Of a DNA stretch of 26,970 nt, positions 4,964 to 17,568 are shown in pieces. Position numbers and translations under genes: made by a program. Below the pieces are notes generated by a model. The model did not search any database. It saw nothing but the letters and a program-made list of their open reading frames with translations, and was not told the DNA's origin. The stretch lies in IMG/VR virus record IMGVR_UViG_3300032116_001111, positions 1 to 26,970 of that record; one strand, given 5' to 3'. The DNA comes from a virus. The stretch's first letter is position 1. Each line of letters starts with the position of its first letter.

Positions 4964-5416
4964 GTGAAGGCGAAACGCGGCAGGGGAAGGCCGGCGTACG
5001 TGCCAACGGTTGCGGCGATGAAAAAGGTCGAAGCACTGGCAGCGGCTGGCATCAAGCGCGAAGCGATCGCGCACATGCTGGAAATCAACATCGACACGCT
5101 CGAGAAGTATTACCGCCAAGAGCTCGAGACCGGGAAGGATGTGATCCGCGGGAAACTTGCTCTCGCTCTTCACAAGAAGGGCATGGAGGGCAACGTCGCT
5201 GCGATTAAGGCCTTCATGGCGTTAAGCGACAAGGACTCCGCACTTCGAGATGCAGAAGAGGCTTCGCGGAACCTGACCGGCGACGTCGAGCCCACGGCAC
5301 CGCCACCGAAGTATGTCGGCAAGAAAGAGCAGGCGCTGGCGGATGCGAAGTCGCTGATTGAGACCGACGATCTGCTGAACCCGCATTCGCTGCCTGAAGC
5401 GACAACGCTCCAGTAA
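4964..5416 (+). CDS. Terminase small subunit (DNA recognition)
   Basis: This encodes 150 residues. The N-terminus (GRGRPAYVPT, then a helical segment GIKREAIAHMLEINIDTLEK at residues about 29-48) is a helix-turn-helix like those by which small terminases bind the packaging site. The next region (LALALHKKGMEGNVAAIKAF) is helical and typical of oligomerising phage TerS. GTG at 4964 is chosen because GAGGAG at 4952-4957 sits 6 bases upstream; the same frame extends back to 4763, but that part is only a shadow of the preceding gene. The stop overlaps the TerL start by one base (TAATG), supporting co-translation. Its ring would recognise phage DNA and hand it to TerL. Confidence 0.8.
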   Translation: MKAKRGRGRPAYVPTVAAMKKVEALAAAGIKREAIAHMLEINIDTLEKYYRQELETGKDVIRGKLALALHKKGMEGNVAAIKAFMALSDKDSALRDAEEASRNLTGDVEPTAPPPKYVGKKEQALADAKSLIETDDLLNPHSLPEATTLQ

Positions 5417-8253
5417 TGCAGTATTGGGACACGTCCTGCCCGGATTGGGTCGAAAGGCTCAAGTCCAGGCGGCCGCTTGTCCCGGAATTGCCGCTGTTCA
5501 CACCTATGCGCGACAAGGCGCTCCGGGTGTTCAAGAGGCTCCGGCTTCCCGATGTGATCGGGACGCCGACGCTTGGCGAAGCGTGCGATGAGTGGTTGTT
5601 CGCGATCGTGGGGGCGCTATTCGGTTCCTACGACCCGGATCGAGACGTCCGGCATATCCAGGAACTCTTCGAGCTCATACCGAAGAAGAATTCGAAGGCC
5701 CTAGAATTGAGCACTCTTGTCGCTACGCCGACAGGGTTCTCAAAAATCGTCGACTTAAAGGTCGGGGATGAGGTCATTGATGTAGATGGCCGCCCAACAA
5801 AGGTTACGTGGAAAAGCCCCGTAATGATCGGGCACCCATGCTTCGAGGTGACATTCAGCACTGGCGAAAGCGTAATTTGCGACGAGGGTCATCTTTGGGT
5901 AACTGATAGCCACCGTGACCGGGAAGCATCATGTAAGACAAGAGCGCAGAAAAGCGATGGTACACGGCGTGCCCCACGCCCGTCAGTGAAGACTACAAAG
6001 CAGATTTATGAAAGCCTGAAGGTAAAGTCTGGCAAATATACGATTAACAACCACCGCATGAGGCTGCCGCAGGCGCTTGATCTTCCGGAGGCCGCCCTGC
6101 CTATCCATCCGTATGTTTTAGGGGCGTGGCTGGGTGATGGATCGACAACGCAGGCGGTGATAACTTCATCTGTGGGCGACGCCGATGGGATGCTTTCTCG
6201 CATTACGGCTTGTGGCCAACCGGCATACAATAAAGCATACCCCTCAAATCCCGGGGCCATATCGATCCGGCTGGCTGACGGCACAAACAGGCGACCGAAA
6301 TACGGATACGTTTTTCTGAGAGAGGCAAGGCGGCTCGGAGTTGTTGGCAACAAGCATATCCCTGATATCTACCTGCGTGCGTCATACGAGCAAAGGCTGG
6401 AATTGCTGCGCGGGCTCATGGATACGGACGGCACAATATCAAAGTCTGGGCAAGCGTCTCTATCTACAACTCTTCCGGCGATTAGGGACGGGGCCGTAGA
6501 GTTAATCAACTCTTTGGGGTTGAAGGCGTCATTTTCAGAATCTCGCGCCATGCTGAATGGCAAGGATTGCGGTCCAGTGTGGACGGTGCAGTTTTGGCCT
6601 TATGATCAGATTTCGGTCTTTAACATCGAGCGGAAAAAGTCACGGCAGAGCCGCGCATCTGCTCGGAATGCACAGAGGTCAAAACACCGGAACATTGTGA
6701 ATGTGCGGCCTGTCGCATCAGTCCCTGTTCAGTGCATTTCAATCGAGAGCCAAACTAAAGAATTCCTGATCACAAAATCTCTGATCCAGACGCACAATTC
6801 GACCAGTTCGGCGGGCATCATGCTCACCGCGGCGATTCTGAACCGCAGGCCGAACGCCGAAGCGGTATTGGTGGCGCCGACGAAAGAGATCGCCGACATT
6901 GCCTACGGGCAGATCGAGGGCATGATCAAACTAGATCCTGACCTGATCAAGCTCTTTGAGATGCACCGGCATATCCGGGTGATCAATCACCGGATGACGG
7001 GGCTGACGCTGGCGGTGAAAGCTGCCGACGTTGATGTCATCACCGGCGGCAAGCAGGCCTACACCCTTGTCGATGAGGTTCACGTCTTCTCATCCCGCAA
7101 GGATGCCGAGAAGAGCTACACCGAAATCAGGGGCGCACTGGCGGCGCGGCCTGATGGGTTCTTTGCTCAGATTACGACCCAGAGCAAAGACCCGCCGGCT
7201 GGTATCTTTGCCCAGGAGCTTGCTCGAGCGCGCGATGTCCGCGACGGCAAGATTAACCTGCCGACATTGGCGGTGCTCTACGAGTACCCCGAAGAGGAAT
7301 TGAATGCGGCTCCTGAGCTTTGGAAGAACCCGGAGACGTGGGCCTGGGTAAATCCGAACATCGGGCGGTCCGTAAATCAGGATTATCTCAGCCGCGAGCT
7401 GATGACGTCGGAGCGTAAGGGGGCGGCTTCGGTCAACCTCTTCGCGTCGCAGCACTTCAATGTCGAGATCGGCATTGGGATGCGGCTGGATCGCTGGGTC
7501 GGCGTCGATTATTGGCTTCAGGCCGCTGACAAGTCTCTGACGCTGGATGAGGTGATCCGGCGGAGCGAAGTGCTGGTCGCCACGATTGACGGCGGCGGGC
7601 TCGACGACTGGTTTGGCCTCTGCATCATGGGGCGTGAAAAGGGCACGGGAACGCATCTCGCTTGGACGCATGCGTGGTGCCACGAGGGCGTTCTGAAGCG
7701 TTACCCGGATATGGCTTCGACCTACCGGGACTTCGAAGCCGACGGCGATCTCACGATCACGAACTACCGCGTCGACAACGTGAAGAAGTCAGAGGTCGAA
7801 GGCGAGGAAGACAAGGTTGTCTCCACCGTCGCTGTCGATCTCAGGGAACTGGTCGGCTACATCAAACTTTGTGAGGCGTCCGGCAAGTTGGGCCCGATAG
7901 GGCTGGACCCGTACGGCGTCACCGCGGTCGTTTCGGCGCTCACCGATGCCGAATTTGATCCTGATGAGCGCATGATGGCTGTCAGCCAGGGCTACAAGCT
8001 CCAGGGTGCGATCAAATCGACCGAGTTGTATCTTGAGACTGGGGCGCTACGGCACTCCGGGTCGAGAATGATCAATCACTGCGCATCGAATGCGCGGACT
8101 GAGAAGCGCGGCAACGCGATCTTGGTCACCAAGGCGGCGAGCGACGGAAAGATTGATCCACTGATGGCGCTGTTCTCGGCGGAATCGGTGATGTCGACCA
8201 ACCCGGAGCCGGCGGGAAGCATTTACGAACAGCGTGGCCTCCGGGTCGCATAA
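5416..8253 (+). CDS. terL: Terminase large subunit, interrupted by an intein
   Basis: A 945-residue precursor of the ATPase-nuclease motor that packages DNA through the portal. Removing the 367-residue intein (residues 95-461) leaves 578, normal for HK97-type TerL. The joined extein reads PKKNSK-STSS, a Walker A variant of the PRKNGKS type. Walker B is LVDEVH with Asp553-Glu554. The C-terminal RNase H-like nuclease is marked by Asp725 in IDGGGLDDW, Asp831 in GLDPYG and Asp914 in KIDPL. The gene overlaps TerS by one base and is followed 10 bases later by the small membrane protein. Because the intein splits the ATP-binding loop, the unspliced precursor should be unable to package DNA, so splicing is probably essential. 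Family certainty is high. Confidence 0.95.
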   Translation: MQYWDTSCPDWVERLKSRRPLVPELPLFTPMRDKALRVFKRLRLPDVIGTPTLGEACDEWLFAIVGALFGSYDPDRDVRHIQELFELIPKKNSKALELSTLVATPTGFSKIVDLKVGDEVIDVDGRPTKVTWKSPVMIGHPCFEVTFSTGESVICDEGHLWVTDSHRDREASCKTRAQKSDGTRRAPRPSVKTTKQIYESLKVKSGKYTINNHRMRLPQALDLPEAALPIHPYVLGAWLGDGSTTQAVITSSVGDADGMLSRITACGQPAYNKAYPSNPGAISIRLADGTNRRPKYGYVFLREARRLGVVGNKHIPDIYLRASYEQRLELLRGLMDTDGTISKSGQASLSTTLPAIRDGAVELINSLGLKASFSESRAMLNGKDCGPVWTVQFWPYDQISVFNIERKKSRQSRASARNAQRSKHRNIVNVRPVASVPVQCISIESQTKEFLITKSLIQTHNSTSSAGIMLTAAILNRRPNAEAVLVAPTKEIADIAYGQIEGMIKLDPDLIKLFEMHRHIRVINHRMTGLTLAVKAADVDVITGGKQAYTLVDEVHVFSSRKDAEKSYTEIRGALAARPDGFFAQITTQSKDPPAGIFAQELARARDVRDGKINLPTLAVLYEYPEEELNAAPELWKNPETWAWVNPNIGRSVNQDYLSRELMTSERKGAASVNLFASQHFNVEIGIGMRLDRWVGVDYWLQAADKSLTLDEVIRRSEVLVATIDGGGLDDWFGLCIMGREKGTGTHLAWTHAWCHEGVLKRYPDMASTYRDFEADGDLTITNYRVDNVKKSEVEGEEDKVVSTVAVDLRELVGYIKLCEASGKLGPIGLDPYGVTAVVSALTDAEFDPDERMMAVSQGYKLQGAIKSTELYLETGALRHSGSRMINHCASNARTEKRGNAILVTKAASDGKIDPLMALFSAESVMSTNPEPAGSIYEQRGLRVA
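5698..6798 (+). mobile_element. Class 3 intein with LAGLIDADG homing endonuclease in TerL
   Basis: An in-frame protein intron of 367 residues (TerL precursor 95-461) between Lys94 and Ser462 of the Walker A loop. It starts with Ala instead of Cys or Ser (ALELSTLVATPTG, then LKVGDEV). Block B is GESVICDEGHLW with His159 and Trp161. Block F is VPVQCISIES with Cys440 at the place of the usual Asp. Block G is QTHN followed by Ser, with Thr459, His460 and Asn461. Ala1 plus the Trp-Cys-Thr triplet is the published signature of class 3 inteins, in which the block F Cys is the first nucleophile. Between blocks B and F are two LAGLIDADG motifs (VLGAWLGDG with Asp241; LRGLMDTDG with Asp338), both with the expected catalytic acid, so the homing enzyme looks intact. 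Hand-counted samples are 40-47% GC versus 60-68% in the extein. Confidence 0.93.
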
Positions 8254-9738: not shown

Positions 9739-11048
9739 GCGATTTCCCTCATCTTCGCGCGGCCATCTACTCGGTGCCGTGGGCGATCATGCCGGAGCGG
9801 CTGGAAGCGATCGCCGAGGTTTTCGAGCGCCGACTTCAGGGTATTCGAAAGAGCCCGGAAGAGATCGCTGCTATAAAGGGCGAACGCGCGGGCGTGAACG
9901 GTGGCCTGGAACTTCGCGCGCTCAGTGATCCATCAGCCCCTCTGGCGGCAGCAGGCCAGGCAGCGCCTTCAGGCGGATTGATCGCCGTGATCAATATGCA
10001 CGGAATCGTCGCCCAGCACGCTTCGCAGGTCGACGACATCAGCGGCCCCGGCGGCACGAGCACGGAGCGCGTTGGCGCCAGTTTCCGGACGGCGATGTCT
10101 GACCCGAACGTCAAGGCGATCGTGCTGAACATCGACAGCCCTGGCGGCAGCGTTAACGGTGTGCAAGCACTATCGGATGAAATCTACCGTTCCCGCGGCA
10201 AGAAGCCGATCGTGGCGCAGGTCAACAGCCTTGCTGCTTCGGCTGCATACTGGATTGCGGCATCGGCGGATGAGATCGTGGTGACGCCTGGCGGCAACGT
10301 CGGCAGCATCGGCGTCTACGGAACGCACAAGGATGTCTCGGTTGCCGCGGAGAAAGAGGGCGTCAAGGTAACGTTCATCTCGGCCGGTAAATACAAGGTC
10401 GAGGGGCATCCCTTCGAGCCCCTGAGCAGCGAAGCCGCGCAGGCGATGCAGAAGAGCGTCGATGCATATTATGCTGACTTCCTCCGCGCCGTCGCACAGG
10501 GCAGGGGGGTCAGCACTGAGGATGTCCGCACCGGATTCGGCGAAGGCAGGATCGTAAAGGACAAAGAAGCGGTGCGCGAGCGCATGGCGGATCGTGTCGA
10601 CACGCTCGACGGCACGTTGAAGCGTCTTGCGAAGGGACAGCGCCCAAGCGAGCGCGCCAAGGCCGCGGCTCCTGCATGGCCAGAAAATTTCGCATCGTAC
10701 GAGCCGCCGGCAATTCGTGTCGAGACGGATAGGGAAACCCAAACCTTTGTTGCAGAGCGCCCATGGCCGCAATCAATCATCTTGGCCGATGTCTTCCTTG
10801 ACGGCCATGGAAGGCCAGTGGCCTTAGAGAGCGATACTACCTTCACAATCAACGTCGCGAACGGCATGGCGGTTTATGAGATCGTCGGCTCGCGCACGAT
10901 GGGCGACGAAGGCACCGACTTTGCCGCCGTTCTCAAAGACAGCCTGTACGAGCCGATGCCCTCGGCCGCTGCCCAGCAATCGGCCGAAGACCGAGATGCG
11001 TTCCGCCGCCGGCGTCATGCCGCGCGTCTGCGCTCCCTGAGTATCTGA
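9735..11048 (+). CDS. S49 (SppA-like) head maturation protease with C-terminal extension
   Basis: This encodes 437 residues. Residues about 75-295 form a ClpP/SppA-fold serine protease like phage lambda C: the oxyanion strand NIDSPGGSV, the nucleophile Ser169 in NSLAASAAYW, and Lys221 in AGKYKVEG. The Ser-to-Lys spacing of 52 matches the Ser-Lys dyad of Bacillus-type SppA. In this phage class the enzyme trims the scaffold part of the capsid protein during head assembly, and the capsid gene follows directly. Phage members are commonly near 300 residues; here about 140 extra residues follow, including a compact-looking segment (about 336-405) before the basic AFRRRRHAARLRSLS tail. The extension may act as scaffold or capsid-binding part. 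The start overlaps the portal stop (ATGA). Confidence 0.92.
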   Translation: MSDFPHLRAAIYSVPWAIMPERLEAIAEVFERRLQGIRKSPEEIAAIKGERAGVNGGLELRALSDPSAPLAAAGQAAPSGGLIAVINMHGIVAQHASQVDDISGPGGTSTERVGASFRTAMSDPNVKAIVLNIDSPGGSVNGVQALSDEIYRSRGKKPIVAQVNSLAASAAYWIAASADEIVVTPGGNVGSIGVYGTHKDVSVAAEKEGVKVTFISAGKYKVEGHPFEPLSSEAAQAMQKSVDAYYADFLRAVAQGRGVSTEDVRTGFGEGRIVKDKEAVRERMADRVDTLDGTLKRLAKGQRPSERAKAAAPAWPENFASYEPPAIRVETDRETQTFVAERPWPQSIILADVFLDGHGRPVALESDTTFTINVANGMAVYEIVGSRTMGDEGTDFAAVLKDSLYEPMPSAAAQQSAEDRDAFRRRRHAARLRSLSI

Positions 11049-11071
11049 TCACCAAGCATTGAGTTGTGCGC

Positions 11072-11094
11072 CCCACAGACCGCCGGGCTGTGGG
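11072..11094 (+). terminator. Hairpin between protease and capsid genes (weak terminator or mRNA stabiliser)
   Basis: CCCACAG (11072-11078) and CTGTGGG (11088-11094) are perfect complements around a 9-base loop, followed five bases later by TTTT (11100-11103). It lies in the 97-base gap before the capsid start. The T-run is short and displaced, so full termination is doubtful. Partial termination or protection of the 5' end of a capsid transcript is equally possible. Confidence 0.4.
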
Positions 11095-11145
11095 CTGAGT
11101 TTTCGCGCCTATCGCCCGGCAAGTATTCACAATGAGGTAACGAAG

Positions 11146-12528
11146 ATGGAATCCTTGAAAGCCCTCAAGCAGAAGGCGGCCGACCTCGCGAAAGAGGCCG
11201 ACGCCATTTTCGCGGCTGCGGCTGCGGAGAAGCGTAATCTGACGGATGAAGAAAACAAGCGTGATGACGAAATCTCGGCTGAGTTCGAGAAGCTGTCGGC
11301 TGATATCCAGCGTGCAGAGCGTCATCAGGCTCGCCTGCGCACGATGGACTTCACCGGCCGCGACAGCGCCCCGGCTGATGCCAATGCCATCGCGGCGGCT
11401 CGCGCTGCTGTTCGTGGCGGCGTCCACACTCCCGGCGAGCGTTTCGCCAGCCTCGGTGAGCAGATGCTTGCTGTCGCGGCTGCTGATCGCAAGGCTCTTG
11501 GTCAACAGGATCCCCGCCTCGTGTGGTTCGATGGCACGGGCGTCTCTGCGGCAACCGGTCTGAGCGAAAGCGTCGGCTCCGATGGCGGCTTCATGGTCGA
11601 AACGCAGATGGCCGATGTGATGCTCCGCCCTGTGTTTGAGGGCGGCGAGATCGCTTCGCGCGTCACCCGCATCCCGATCGGCCCGAACGCCAACGGCATC
11701 AGCGCCAACGGCGTCGATGAGACCTCTCGCGCGACCGGCTCGCGTTGGGGCGGCGTTCGCGCCTACTGGACGGGTGAGGCCGACGCCATCACCGCATCGC
11801 AGCCGAAGTTCCGTCGCATCAAGATGGAACTCGATAAGATCACGGCGGCCTGCTACGTCACCGGCGAACTCCTGAAGGACTCCACCGCCCTCGAGGCGAT
11901 GATCCGCATGGCCTTCTCGGACGAAATCGCGTTCAAGCTCGAAGACGCGATCGTGCAGGGCACTGGCGCCGGCGCTCCGCTCGGCTACCTGAATGCGGGT
12001 TCTCTCGTCACGGTGTCGAAGGAGACCTCTCAGGTCGCAGCGACCATCGTCGCGGAAAACATCCTGAAGATGTGGATCCGTATGCCGGCGCGTCTCCATC
12101 GCTCCGCTGTCTGGCTCTGCAACCAGGATATTGAGCCGCAGTTGCACCAGCTCAACGTGAAGATCAAGAATGTCGCCGGTTCTGAGAACGTCGGTGGCAT
12201 CGCGACTCCTACGGTGATCTACAACCCGCCCGGCACGAACGGCTCCACTGTCGGAACGCTCATGGGCCGTCCGGTGATCCCGGTCGAGTATGCCTCGACC
12301 CTCGGCACTGTCGGCGACATCCAGCTCGTCGATCTCAGCCAGTACATGCTGATCGACAAGGGCGGCGTCGAAGGCCAGTCGAGCATCCACGTTCGCTTCC
12401 TCTACGATGAGACCTGCTTCCGGTTCATCTATCGCGCGAACGGTATGCCGATCTGGAATTCTGCTGTGACCCCGTACAAGGGCACCAACACGCAGAGCCC
12501 GTTCGTCGCCCTCGAAACCCGCTCGTAA
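11146..12528 (+). CDS. Major capsid protein, HK97 fold
   Basis: This encodes 460 residues. The first 70 or so are strongly helical and charged (KALKQKAADLAKEADAIF, EKLSADIQRAERHQARLR), the coiled-coil delta domain that serves as built-in scaffold and is usually cut off by the head protease. The remainder is the HK97-type shell domain, opening near residue 146 (SDGGFMVETQMADVM) and closing with a beta-rich region (ETCFRFIYRANGMPIWNSA). ATG 11146 is chosen because GAGG at 11134-11137 is 8 bases upstream; the same frame runs back to 11059 but those codons lie in the hairpin-bearing gap. Hairpins lie on both sides of the gene, and it has the longest upstream gap in the head block, consistent with separate control of this highly expressed protein. 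The cleavage site cannot be placed by eye. Confidence 0.93.
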   Translation: MESLKALKQKAADLAKEADAIFAAAAAEKRNLTDEENKRDDEISAEFEKLSADIQRAERHQARLRTMDFTGRDSAPADANAIAAARAAVRGGVHTPGERFASLGEQMLAVAAADRKALGQQDPRLVWFDGTGVSAATGLSESVGSDGGFMVETQMADVMLRPVFEGGEIASRVTRIPIGPNANGISANGVDETSRATGSRWGGVRAYWTGEADAITASQPKFRRIKMELDKITAACYVTGELLKDSTALEAMIRMAFSDEIAFKLEDAIVQGTGAGAPLGYLNAGSLVTVSKETSQVAATIVAENILKMWIRMPARLHRSAVWLCNQDIEPQLHQLNVKIKNVAGSENVGGIATPTVIYNPPGTNGSTVGTLMGRPVIPVEYASTLGTVGDIQLVDLSQYMLIDKGGVEGQSSIHVRFLYDETCFRFIYRANGMPIWNSAVTPYKGTNTQSPFVALETRS

Positions 12529-12542
12529 CCCCTGACATAACC

Positions 12543-12564
12543 GCAGCCGGGTAAGCCCGGCTGC
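12543..12564 (+). terminator. Perfect 9-bp hairpin just after the capsid gene
   Basis: GCAGCCGGG (12543-12551) pairs perfectly with CCCGGCTGC (12556-12564) around the 4-base loop TAAG. It begins 14 bases after the capsid stop. No T-run follows, so as a terminator it would be Rho-dependent or weak. Protection of the capsid mRNA 3' end from exonucleases is a good alternative. Confidence 0.55.
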
Positions 12565-12594
12565 ATCCCGAAATTCAACCAAGGAAACCGTGAG

Positions 12595-13074
12595 ATGAAG
12601 CTCTCTCTTCCGCAGCAGTTCAAAATTGTCGAGGCGATGGCCCCGGCAGCCGACGCCGCAGGTCGCACGTCGGACTATGTTTCGCTGAAGAACGTCGACA
12701 AGGCCTGGATCGTTTTCACCACGACCCAGGGCAACGCGGCGACCATCGCGATCACGCCCAAGCAGGCTACGGCCGTGGCTGGCACGAGCGCGAAAAACCT
12801 CACCGTCAGCGTGCCGATCTGGGCAAACCTTGATACCGCCACGTCCGACACGCTTGCTCGCGCAACCGATGCCACCAGCTACACCACGGACGCCGCCATA
12901 AAGAACAAGGTTGTGGTGATCGAAATCGATCCCCGCCACCTCGATGTCGACGGCGGGTTCGACTGCATTGCGTTCACGACCGGTGCCTCCAACGCTGCGA
13001 ACATCACGCAGGGCATTTTCATTCTGGAGTATCGCTATCAGCAGTCTTCGCCTCCGGCCGCGATCACGGACTGA
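12595..13074 (+). CDS. Small head-region protein after capsid (possible decoration protein)
   Basis: This encodes 159 residues, mainly beta-strands with Ala/Thr/Val-rich stretches (KAWIVFTTTQGNAATIAIT, KVVVIEIDPRHLD, GIFILEYRYQQ). Proteins of this look and length often follow the capsid gene in HK97-type phages of Proteobacteria and are listed as hypothetical or as head stabilisation or decoration proteins. There is no catalytic motif or membrane segment. AAGGAAACCGTGAG precedes the ATG. Hairpins lie upstream and downstream, so it could be translated from its own processed transcript at high level, as a decoration protein would require. That role is inferred from position only. Confidence 0.75.
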   Translation: MKLSLPQQFKIVEAMAPAADAAGRTSDYVSLKNVDKAWIVFTTTQGNAATIAITPKQATAVAGTSAKNLTVSVPIWANLDTATSDTLARATDATSYTTDAAIKNKVVVIEIDPRHLDVDGGFDCIAFTTGASNAANITQGIFILEYRYQQSSPPAAITD

Positions 13075-13095
13075 TAGCCAGTTCGTAACGACAAG

Positions 13096-13120
13096 GTGGG
13101 TCGCGATCCTCGCGGCCCAC
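13096..13120 (+). terminator. 10-bp hairpin after the second head gene
   Basis: GTGGG-T-CGCG (13096-13105) pairs with CGCG-G-CCCAC (13111-13120), giving nine Watson-Crick pairs and one G-T wobble around the loop ATCCT. It lies in the 63-base gap between two head genes. The next ribosome binding site, GAGGGGA, follows about 6 bases after the stem. There is no T-run, so mRNA stabilisation or modest attenuation is more likely than full termination. Confidence 0.5.
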
Positions 13121-13137
13121 AGCAAGAGGGGAAATAA

Positions 13138-13581
13138 ATGTACGTCCGTTCTCTCATCGGCCAACGTGCTGGCCAGATCATTGAGACGCCTTATCACGTC
13201 GCTCAGGCGATGTTTATGAACGGCACAGCGGAGCCTGTGACGCCAGAAGAGGTCGAGGCGGCAAAGTTGCCGCCGGTAAGCCAGATCGAAACAAGGATGG
13301 GTGAAGACGAAATTCCGCAAGGATATGCGATCGAACCTGATCCATTCAAAGGCTTCAACGTCAAGGATCCGGGCGGCCACATCCTGACGAAAGACATTTT
13401 GCTCGAAAACATGCCACGGGCCCGTGAGTGGGCGCGCGAGCATCATGCCACGGTGCTTGGTGTACGGCCTCCGCAGGCTTCGAAACCTGGGCGCCCTGTA
13501 GGCGGCAGTAAACAGCAGCAGGCAGCGGCAATCGCGGCTGCATCGGCTGCGTCTCCGCCCCCTCCGCCTTCCGAAGAGTGA
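13138..13581 (+). CDS. Conserved small head-region protein, low-complexity tail
   Basis: This encodes 147 residues. The N-terminus (MYVRSLIGQRAGQIIETPYH) resembles short phage proteins found between capsid and connector genes whose start reads as a small beta-hairpin. The middle has DPFKGFNVKDPGGHILTKD and a helical segment (ENMPRAREWAREHHA). From about residue 108 the sequence becomes Pro/Gly/Ala/Gln-rich and likely disordered. GAGGGGAAATAA precedes the ATG, a strong ribosome binding site. The function is unknown to me; position suggests a minor head or head-completion factor. The long reverse-strand frame through this region is a coding shadow. Confidence 0.72.
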   Translation: MYVRSLIGQRAGQIIETPYHVAQAMFMNGTAEPVTPEEVEAAKLPPVSQIETRMGEDEIPQGYAIEPDPFKGFNVKDPGGHILTKDILLENMPRAREWAREHHATVLGVRPPQASKPGRPVGGSKQQQAAAIAAASAASPPPPPSEE

Positions 13582-13585
13582 AGAA

Positions 13586-14185
13586 ATGGAACGGATCACC
13601 ACTGTCGAGACAGCCGCCAGCCAATACCTGACGGACGTCTCAAGCGTGAAGGCTGATCTTGGCATCACAGATTCGTCTGAGGATGCCTACCTTGTCCGGC
13701 GTGTCAGTGAGGCATCTGCCCTTGCAGCGCGATATTGCGGCAGGGTTTTCAAGTCTGAGGTGGTGACTGACCGGTTTTACCTTGACGATCTGATGCCATC
13801 TCTGGTGTTGGCGCGTTTCCCGGTTACGGCGATTTCCAGCGTGACTGAAAACGGCGATGCGGTCGCATCGACGGAATATCGGTGCGACACAGAGACGGGA
13901 ATCTTGTACCGGCTTGATACCGATGGGAATCGGGTTCAGTGGGAAGCCGACACGGTAGTCGTCGCGTACACCGGCGGCTACACAACTATCCCCGCAGATT
14001 TAGACGGTGCGGTGATCGGCCTGATCAAGCACATGCGGGCATCCCGTCGGCGTGATCCTTCGGTTCGTAGCGTCCGCGTTCCGGATGTTATCGAGACGAC
14101 GTTCTGGGTCAAAGGGCCTGGGGAAAGCAACCTTCCCCCGGATATCGCCGGCACGCTTGATCTCTACAGGGCCGCGCGCCTGTGA
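13586..14185 (+). CDS. Head-tail connector (gp6-like / phiE125 gp8 type)
   Basis: This encodes 199 residues. It has the look of head-tail connector adaptors that dock under the portal: an N-terminal helical region (SVKADLGITDSSEDAYLVRR, then VSEASALAARYCGRVF), the central LVLARFPVTAISSVTENG strand with a conserved PV turn, and the C-terminal ADTVVVAYTGGYTTIPADL followed by helices (GAVIGLIKHM). Such proteins form a 12- or 13-fold ring sealing the DNA exit path. It starts 4 bases after the preceding stop and ends in a 4-base overlap with the next gene (GTGA). The pattern LxRFPV plus YTGGY plus IPxDL is strong support for this family. Confidence 0.85.
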   Translation: MERITTVETAASQYLTDVSSVKADLGITDSSEDAYLVRRVSEASALAARYCGRVFKSEVVTDRFYLDDLMPSLVLARFPVTAISSVTENGDAVASTEYRCDTETGILYRLDTDGNRVQWEADTVVVAYTGGYTTIPADLDGAVIGLIKHMRASRRRDPSVRSVRVPDVIETTFWVKGPGESNLPPDIAGTLDLYRAARL

Positions 14186-16795: not shown

Positions 16796-17203
16796 ATGAA
16801 ACTTTCAGCATTGAAAAAGGCCGGTCGAGAAATCATCGAAGGCAAGTGGGTCGACAATCTGCCGAATTTACCTCCGGAGGTAGGGTTCCTCGTCGTCGGC
16901 CTCCAGCATCCGGAGGTGCGCAAGTTCACGGCAGAGGCGTATCGCGCGCTGACCGAGGAAGAGCGCAAGGATAACGACAAGCTCGAAGCGATCCAGCGCG
17001 ACCAGATCAAGCAAGTGCTGGTGCGCGGCTGGCGCGGGATCACGGATGAAGCTGGCGCCGACATCCCGTTCAACAAGGAATCTCTCACAGCCCTTGTTGA
17101 TGATCCGTGGTCTGGGCCGATGATCGTCCCCGCCATCAACACCGCAGTCGAAAAGGTCGGTGTCGTCGAGGCTGAAGCCGAAAAGGCTGACGCAAAAAAC
17201 TAA
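16796..17203 (+). CDS. Tail assembly chaperone, short form (lambda G-like)
   Basis: This encodes 135 residues ending at a TAA directly after the slippery sequence. It is acidic and helical, with an N-terminal KWVDNLPNLPPEVGFLVVGL region and a helix LTEEERKDNDKLEAIQRDQI. Lambda G-type chaperones coat the tape measure before tube assembly and are absent from the mature tail. Position between tail tube and tape measure is diagnostic, and the -1 frameshift to the following frame confirms the G/GT pair. GAGGGGA lies 6 bases before the ATG. Most ribosomes should terminate here, giving mainly the short form. Confidence 0.85.
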   Translation: MKLSALKKAGREIIEGKWVDNLPNLPPEVGFLVVGLQHPEVRKFTAEAYRALTEEERKDNDKLEAIQRDQIKQVLVRGWRGITDEAGADIPFNKESLTALVDDPWSGPMIVPAINTAVEKVGVVEAEAEKADAKN

Positions 17204-17273
17204 CAGAAGCCCTGAAGTGGCATCTTGTGTGGGGTGGCCGTCTCGAATGGTTGGAGACGGTGCTTGCCCCACA
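17194..17273 (+). promoter_or_regulatory. Programmed -1 ribosomal frameshift site with downstream stem-loop
   Basis: The heptamer A-AAA-AAC at 17194-17200 is in the correct phase (GCA AAA AAC) and is followed directly by the 0-frame TAA at 17201-17203. Slipping back one base continues into an open frame to 17568. Downstream lies a nested structure: TGTGGGG (17228-17234) pairs with CCCCACA (17267-17273), and inside it CCGTCTC (17238-17244) pairs with GAGACGG (17254-17260). The spacer of 27 bases is longer than the usual 5-9, so whether this stem stimulates the shift is uncertain. Confidence 0.88.
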
Positions 17274-17568
17274 ACTTGCCGCCAAAGGGCTGCCGTGCAA
17301 GCCGCTCGACGCGCGGCCAAAAATCCCTCCCCATCTCATCCCTATCTGGGATGCCTACGCCTCCCTTGAGCGTGATCGCCCTCTCACGATGGGCGGTCCC
17401 GGCCCGATTCCGTTTTCGTCGATTGATGCGTATGCGCGGCGCTACGGCATCGACGATCTTGTCGAGTTCGACAGGTTCCGCCGCCTGATCATGGCGATGG
17501 ACAGTCAATACTTGAGCCACGTCGCGGACGAAATGGCGAAAGAGACCAAGAAAGGAAAGAAGCGTTAA
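17200..17568 (+). CDS. Frameshift-expressed C-terminal part of tail assembly chaperone (lambda GT-like)
   Basis: This is the -1 frame continuation. After the slip the product reads on as LTEALKWHLVWGGRLEWLET and ends at 17568, adding 122 residues to the 135 of the short form for a fusion of about 257. The segment DAYARRYGIDDLVEFDRFRR and its aromatic surroundings are typical of the T domain that binds the tail tube protein in G/GT systems. A GTG at 17227 could start this frame by itself, but it lacks a ribosome binding site and the open frame extends upstream exactly to the slippery site, so the fusion is the better reading. The stop overlaps the tape measure start by one base. Confidence 0.85.
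   Translation, partial: LTEALKWHLVWGGRLEWLETVLAPQLAAKGLPCKPLDARPKIPPHLIPIWDAYASLERDRPLTMGGPGPIPFSSIDAYARRYGIDDLVEFDRFRRLIMAMDSQYLSHVADEMAKETKKGKKR

Follow-up and report, generated by a model that had tools for sequence, protein, structure and literature searches.

The double-stranded DNA phages are said to share a conserved frameshift in their tail genes, reportedly set out by Xu, Hendrix and Duda in 2004. This frameshift, the lambda G/GT case included, has also been reviewed (PMC5009743). Among the Caulobacter phages, phiCbK carries the slippery heptamer AAAAAAC and Colossus carries GGGAAAC (PMC3556154). In annotated phage frameshifts the distance from slip site to stop averages 26 nt, which makes a zero distance unusual (PMC10885494), and adjacency of the two has already been noted for gp12/gp13 of Acinetobacter phage vB_AbaS_Loki (PMC5313236). 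In the polymerase frameshift of the plant RNA viruses PEMV, BYDV, RCNMV and GRV, the stop lies at the slippery site or 3 nt past it; in PEMV, where it is located 3 nt after the slip site, a large bulged hairpin follows the stop, and the order of slip site, stop and hairpin is common to umbra-, diantho- and luteoviruses (PMC4737148).

The stretch of DNA analysed here (the window, 26,970 nt, positions 1 to 26,970 of IMG/VR record IMGVR_UViG_3300032116_001111), for which no DNA-level similarity to phages was found, contains two overlapping frames between a tail tube gene (Phage_tube_2, E 1.1e-37) and a tape measure gene (TMP_2, E 1.3e-35), with chaperone domains in both frames, as in the lambda type; the genes run in the order tail tube, small ORF, G, T, tape measure. 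Gene G (16796..17203, + strand, 0 frame, 135 aa) was identified as a tail assembly chaperone by its match to phrog_313 (tail assembly chaperone, E 5.8e-14) and by its position. Its 3' end reads GCA AAA AAC TAA, in which the heptamer A AAA AAC (17194..17200, +) has the X XXY YYZ phase of a tandem -1 slip and is abutted by the 0-frame stop TAA (17201..17203, +, in the context TAAC). Past the slip, the -1 frame continues as CTA ACA GAA GCC CTG and stays open up to a TAA at 17566-17568, which overlaps the tape measure ATG at 17568. The T domain that it encodes (17200..17568, +, 122 aa) matches PF23812 Phage_TAC_18 (E 4.9e-15) and phrog_3817 (E 6.1e-19), and phrog_8233, a longer tail assembly chaperone family, spans T from residue 1. 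The initial annotation had read the heptamer as perfectly in phase with an adjoining 0-frame stop, the -1 frame as open to the tape measure gene with a 257-residue fusion, and the site as joining two tail chaperones. Sequence and ORFs bear out the first two of these points, the fusion being 135+122 = 257 aa, and the third is backed by the domain matches and by the conservation of the site in relatives. By letter composition AAAAAAC is not rare (one seen versus 1.57 expected in the window), and what goes beyond chance is its phase, place and conservation. In-phase heptamers whose second triplet consists of A or of T occur at 2 of 7272 in-frame codon positions of the main ORFs of the window, and only the one at 17194-17200 is near a stop.

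Two further features of the window were observed. In the large terminase gene (945 aa, 5416-8253, +), about 365 residues that resemble an intein, with Hint_2 and LAGLIDADG_3/Hom_end domains, are inserted in frame at the Walker A motif, with PKKNSK on one side and STSSAG on the other; the first residue of the insertion looks to be Ala, not Cys/Ser, and it ends in HN before Ser. On the minus strand, a 911-aa open frame (10933-13668, -) lies opposite the protease, the capsid and their neighbours, and probably arises mechanically from the high G+C.

Relatives were gathered through a tail-tube alignment together with a four-row T alignment; scans with single proteins (G, T or tape measure) yielded few. 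The comparison set consists of 61 non-redundant G-T junctions from the T family of the window. The relative closest to the window shares 48% identity with it in T. In 58 of the junctions a tandem slippery heptamer coincides exactly with the T domain start, in the same phase, the types being AAAAAAC (34), GGGAAAC (19), GGGAAAG (2), AAAAAAG (1), AAAAAAT (1) and GGGAAAA (1), and the conservation of T (LTxALxWxLxWG) opens with the codon that directly follows the slip. The initial annotation had named, as the pattern that would speak against a frameshift, relatives that lack the heptamer and keep both frames as genes with starts of their own; such relatives were looked for in this set and essentially not found. 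Two junctions do hold both frames with a degenerate site (L133, 1495-1504, AAAAAGC TAA; L156, 1490-1505, GCA AAG TCT TAA), and a third, likewise with both frames and a degenerate site, is differently arranged (L153, 1485-1500, AGC AAA AGC TAA). More distant tail-tube relatives (L021-L091) also have conserved -1 sites past the tail tube gene, between two chaperone frames, namely AAATTTT with a stop 9 nt on and TTTTTTG with a stop mostly 6 nt on. Taken together, the comparison supports well a programmed -1 frameshift at the end of gene G, ordinary in kind and of the lambda G/GT type, to which we would assign a probability of roughly 0.93.

Upstream of the heptamer, the family has a Shine-Dalgarno-like consensus G/A/G/G at -11 to -8 (47/49/41/51 of 61 relatives), which in the window takes the weak form AAGG (17183..17186, +), ending 7 nt before the heptamer and with a pairing energy of only -3.2 kcal/mol. 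GAG/AAG codons are preferred over GAA/AAA at this place (33 of 43 versus 24.8 expected; 73 of 20000 simulations), a signal of codon choice that is confounded by the conserved Glu-Ala/Asp peptide, and in a test of pairing energy the family departs by only about 2 sd from synonymous shuffles. The codon preference may suggest that the element acts as a stimulator.

Downstream of the heptamer, the region 17201-17290 folds with an MFE of -47.8 kcal/mol (z -5.7 versus dinucleotide shuffles) into a long interrupted hairpin, predicted at 17209..17290 (+), whose helices pair 17209-17213 with 17286-17290, 17217-17222 with 17277-17282, 17228-17236 with 17265-17273, and 17237-17244 with 17254-17261. The two outer helices have pair probabilities of 0.97-1.0, and when protein and codon composition were preserved only 5 of 2000 synonymous recodings were as stable as the whole hairpin (z -3.3). 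Its predicted base leaves a spacer of 8 nt after the heptamer, or 7 when one includes the additional A-U pair of a longer fold, which falls within the usual 5-9 nt between heptamer and structure (PMC7618472), as in a canonical -1 signal. Among the relatives, structure in excess of synonymous recodings has its sole clear peak over 130 nt in the 30-nt segments starting at +7 to +10 (z -0.93 ± 0.21 at +7 to +36, and -0.78 ± 0.20), and elsewhere z is not below about -0.4. This peak matches a compact hairpin at +9 to +35 (17209..17235, + in the window), a position that the relatives seem to conserve, judged by the z profile and some covariation. In 51 ungapped sequences, 66% of cells in the compact helix are paired (34% unpaired) versus 37-57% when it is slid, with a covariation score of 0.218 versus 0.11-0.14, although the helix was derived from the synonymous-shuffle profile and then scored on the same data; taken alone, a scan for covariation pair by pair across 54 columns did not reveal a clean helix. 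In the window the compact form (-6.1 kcal/mol) is a weak alternative that competes with the long hairpin and shares its 5' base. The structure excess is also uneven: z falls below -2 at +6 to +65 in no more than 14 of 58 relatives, and the enrichment of 7-9 nt spacers is only mild (20 versus 13.6 expected). On balance, these folds and the family profile make it fairly probable that a hairpin with its base 8 bases after the heptamer stimulates the slip.

The initial annotation had seen only two 7-bp stems (17228-17234/17267-17273 and 17238-17244/17254-17260), 27 bases past the heptamer, and had proposed that this unusually distant stem-loop either acts from afar or rearranges into a pseudoknot. 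The stems exist as described; the oddity, however, stems from an incomplete fold, since they form the apical part (17228..17273, +) of the long hairpin, with which they are continuous through outer helices based at +9. While the apical stem is stable on its own (-28 kcal/mol; z -2.25 versus synonymous recodings), and a stem bound by a protein can act at some distance, as with cardiovirus 2A and its spacer of 13-14 nt (PMC7618472), action of the stem alone, in either form, is unlikely. Its 3' arm falls partly inside a four-residue T insertion, VLAP, that is missing from the aligned relatives, so it is not the signal of the family; the structure excess of the relatives is near zero at that distance; and no downstream pseudoknot partner for the apical loop was found beyond chance level. 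With structure starting 8 bases past the heptamer, action at a distance is not needed. Slippage of RNA polymerase on the run of six consecutive A, which would give mRNAs with an altered frame, is very improbable. On the T tree, the AAA and GGG forms of the heptamer were interchanged at least 16 times, a rough count because the tree was built on few columns and leaves many forks open, and since GGGAAAC keeps the tandem-slip pattern while the homopolymer is gone, the swaps point to two tRNAs slipping together and not to the polymerase. One may also consider that T is a separate gene, read from the GTG at 17227 where gene callers place its start, with no fusion made. An ORF from that GTG does exist, and five of eight named phages checked (RcXuper, SCUT-S3, MAR10, RXM and Lacusarx) have T annotated as a separate gene. 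Such a gene, however, would leave the conserved LTxALxW residues upstream of its start, and in 47 of 58 loci, that of the window included, no ATG, GTG or TTG stands in the T frame ahead of the conserved T start, so T usually cannot be an independent gene and this explanation has very little left to recommend it. T would then be expressed only as the G-T fusion. All eight phages (the other three being BL57, Azospirillum phage Cd and 13VV501A) have the site, with the stop adjacent in seven, and only BL57 is annotated with a joined gene. In the public records of Sphingobium phage Lacusarx and of Azospirillum phage Cd, T is truncated and unannotated, respectively, even though G GGA AAC TAA is present in both. 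Thus deposited phage genomes often miss the G-T fusion (1/8 joined, 1/8 with no T, 1/8 with T truncated).

A different account of what drives the slip, leading to the same product, takes up the third idea of the initial annotation, a pause at the adjacent stop. Here the ribosome would slip mainly once translocation has moved AAA AAC into the E and P sites and brought TAA into the A site; release at TAAC, being slow, would leave time for it, with the hairpin in a modulating role only. This account is plausible, if at somewhat less than even odds. Among the 53 relatives with XXXAAAC, 35 have the 0-frame stop directly after the heptamer versus 17.9 expected from Leu codon use and the next base, a number that none of 100000 simulations reached, although these take no account of kinship among the sequences. 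At T codon 1, CTA, which of the four CTN codons is used least (7% of them elsewhere in T), occurs 20 times versus 4.2 expected. By a rough count on the T tree, stop adjacency has changed 12 times or more, yet it is common, and its zero distance stands out against the phage average given above. In PEMV, replacing the stop 3 nt past the slip site with a sense codon reduced frameshifting in vitro by 72%, but the authors of that work doubt that the pause acts directly (PMC4737148). On the other hand, the adjacent stop is absent in 21 of 58 relatives; one relative with GGGAAAC has its stop 24 nt beyond. The base after the adjacent stop is C in 26 of 37 cases, which would suit slow release but follows from a conserved Thr and is no independent evidence. 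Adjacency could, moreover, serve simply to spare gpG an out-of-frame tail. The immediate stop thus has two readings, either that it would aid slipping or that gpG was selected to end without a tail. From the sequence comparison, a stop directly after the slip site and a hairpin of constant spacing both appear to have been selected in this chaperone family.

If the site works as a lambda-type programmed frameshift, most ribosomes would read AAA AAC TAA and release the 135-residue gpG, while a minority would slip back by one base on A AAA AAC, with tRNA-Lys and tRNA-Asn re-pairing with AAA AAA, and would read CTA (Leu) instead of the stop, yielding the 257-residue gpGT. The slip would most likely be aided by the hairpin at 17209-17290, held at the mRNA entrance of the ribosome while the heptamer is decoded or translocated, and the adjacent stop, perhaps also the weak Shine-Dalgarno-like AAGG, would probably tune its level. 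As in lambda, gpGT would be expected to bridge the tape measure and tail tube proteins during tail assembly and then to be lost from the virion. In E. coli, A_AAA_AAC is a much poorer shift site than A_AAA_AAG (PMC5009743), a point that weighs against the frameshift and that might also fit a low level of product in the host of this phage. We infer the slipping itself, its level and the role of each stimulator.

The family is well sampled and has three candidate stimulators that vary among its members, namely the Shine-Dalgarno-like element, the adjacent stop and the hairpin at fixed spacing, so that it could serve to measure how much release-factor competition and RNA structure each contribute to -1 frameshifting in bacteria. 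As in lambda G/GT, two chaperones lie between the tail tube and the tape measure, and the second is produced, in the window by prediction, through a -1 shift close to where the first ends; apparently in contrast to lambda, the heptamer of the window is an AAAAAAC that abuts the stop, in families PF23812 and phrog_313. The lambda type is further marked by a fusion in a low, balanced proportion that tails require. The two heptamers of phiCbK and Colossus are also the two main ones of the family, and Caulobacter phage BL57 is itself a relative in T with an adjacent stop and an annotated joined gene, although the similarity of Caulobacter phages to the window is only distant, about 30% in T. The Loki report concerns a single case, without analysis there of adjacency, structure or an upstream signal (PMC5313236). 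Bacterial sites of the dnaX type have an upstream Shine-Dalgarno stimulator, to which the GAGG of the family at -11 to -8, weak in the window, might correspond. PEMV, BYDV, RCNMV and GRV likewise have a stop followed at short spacing by a large bulged hairpin, but these are eukaryotic plant RNA viruses with unrelated genes, in which the role of the stop has been tested by mutation, and the likeness concerns layout and implies no kinship. Tentatively, the stop itself may be, in this chaperone family, a working part of a module that also includes the slip site and the hairpin 8 nt away, and in which slipping would compete with the release factor; such a module would be a bacterial counterpart, independently reached, of the signals with a nearby stop in plant RNA viruses.
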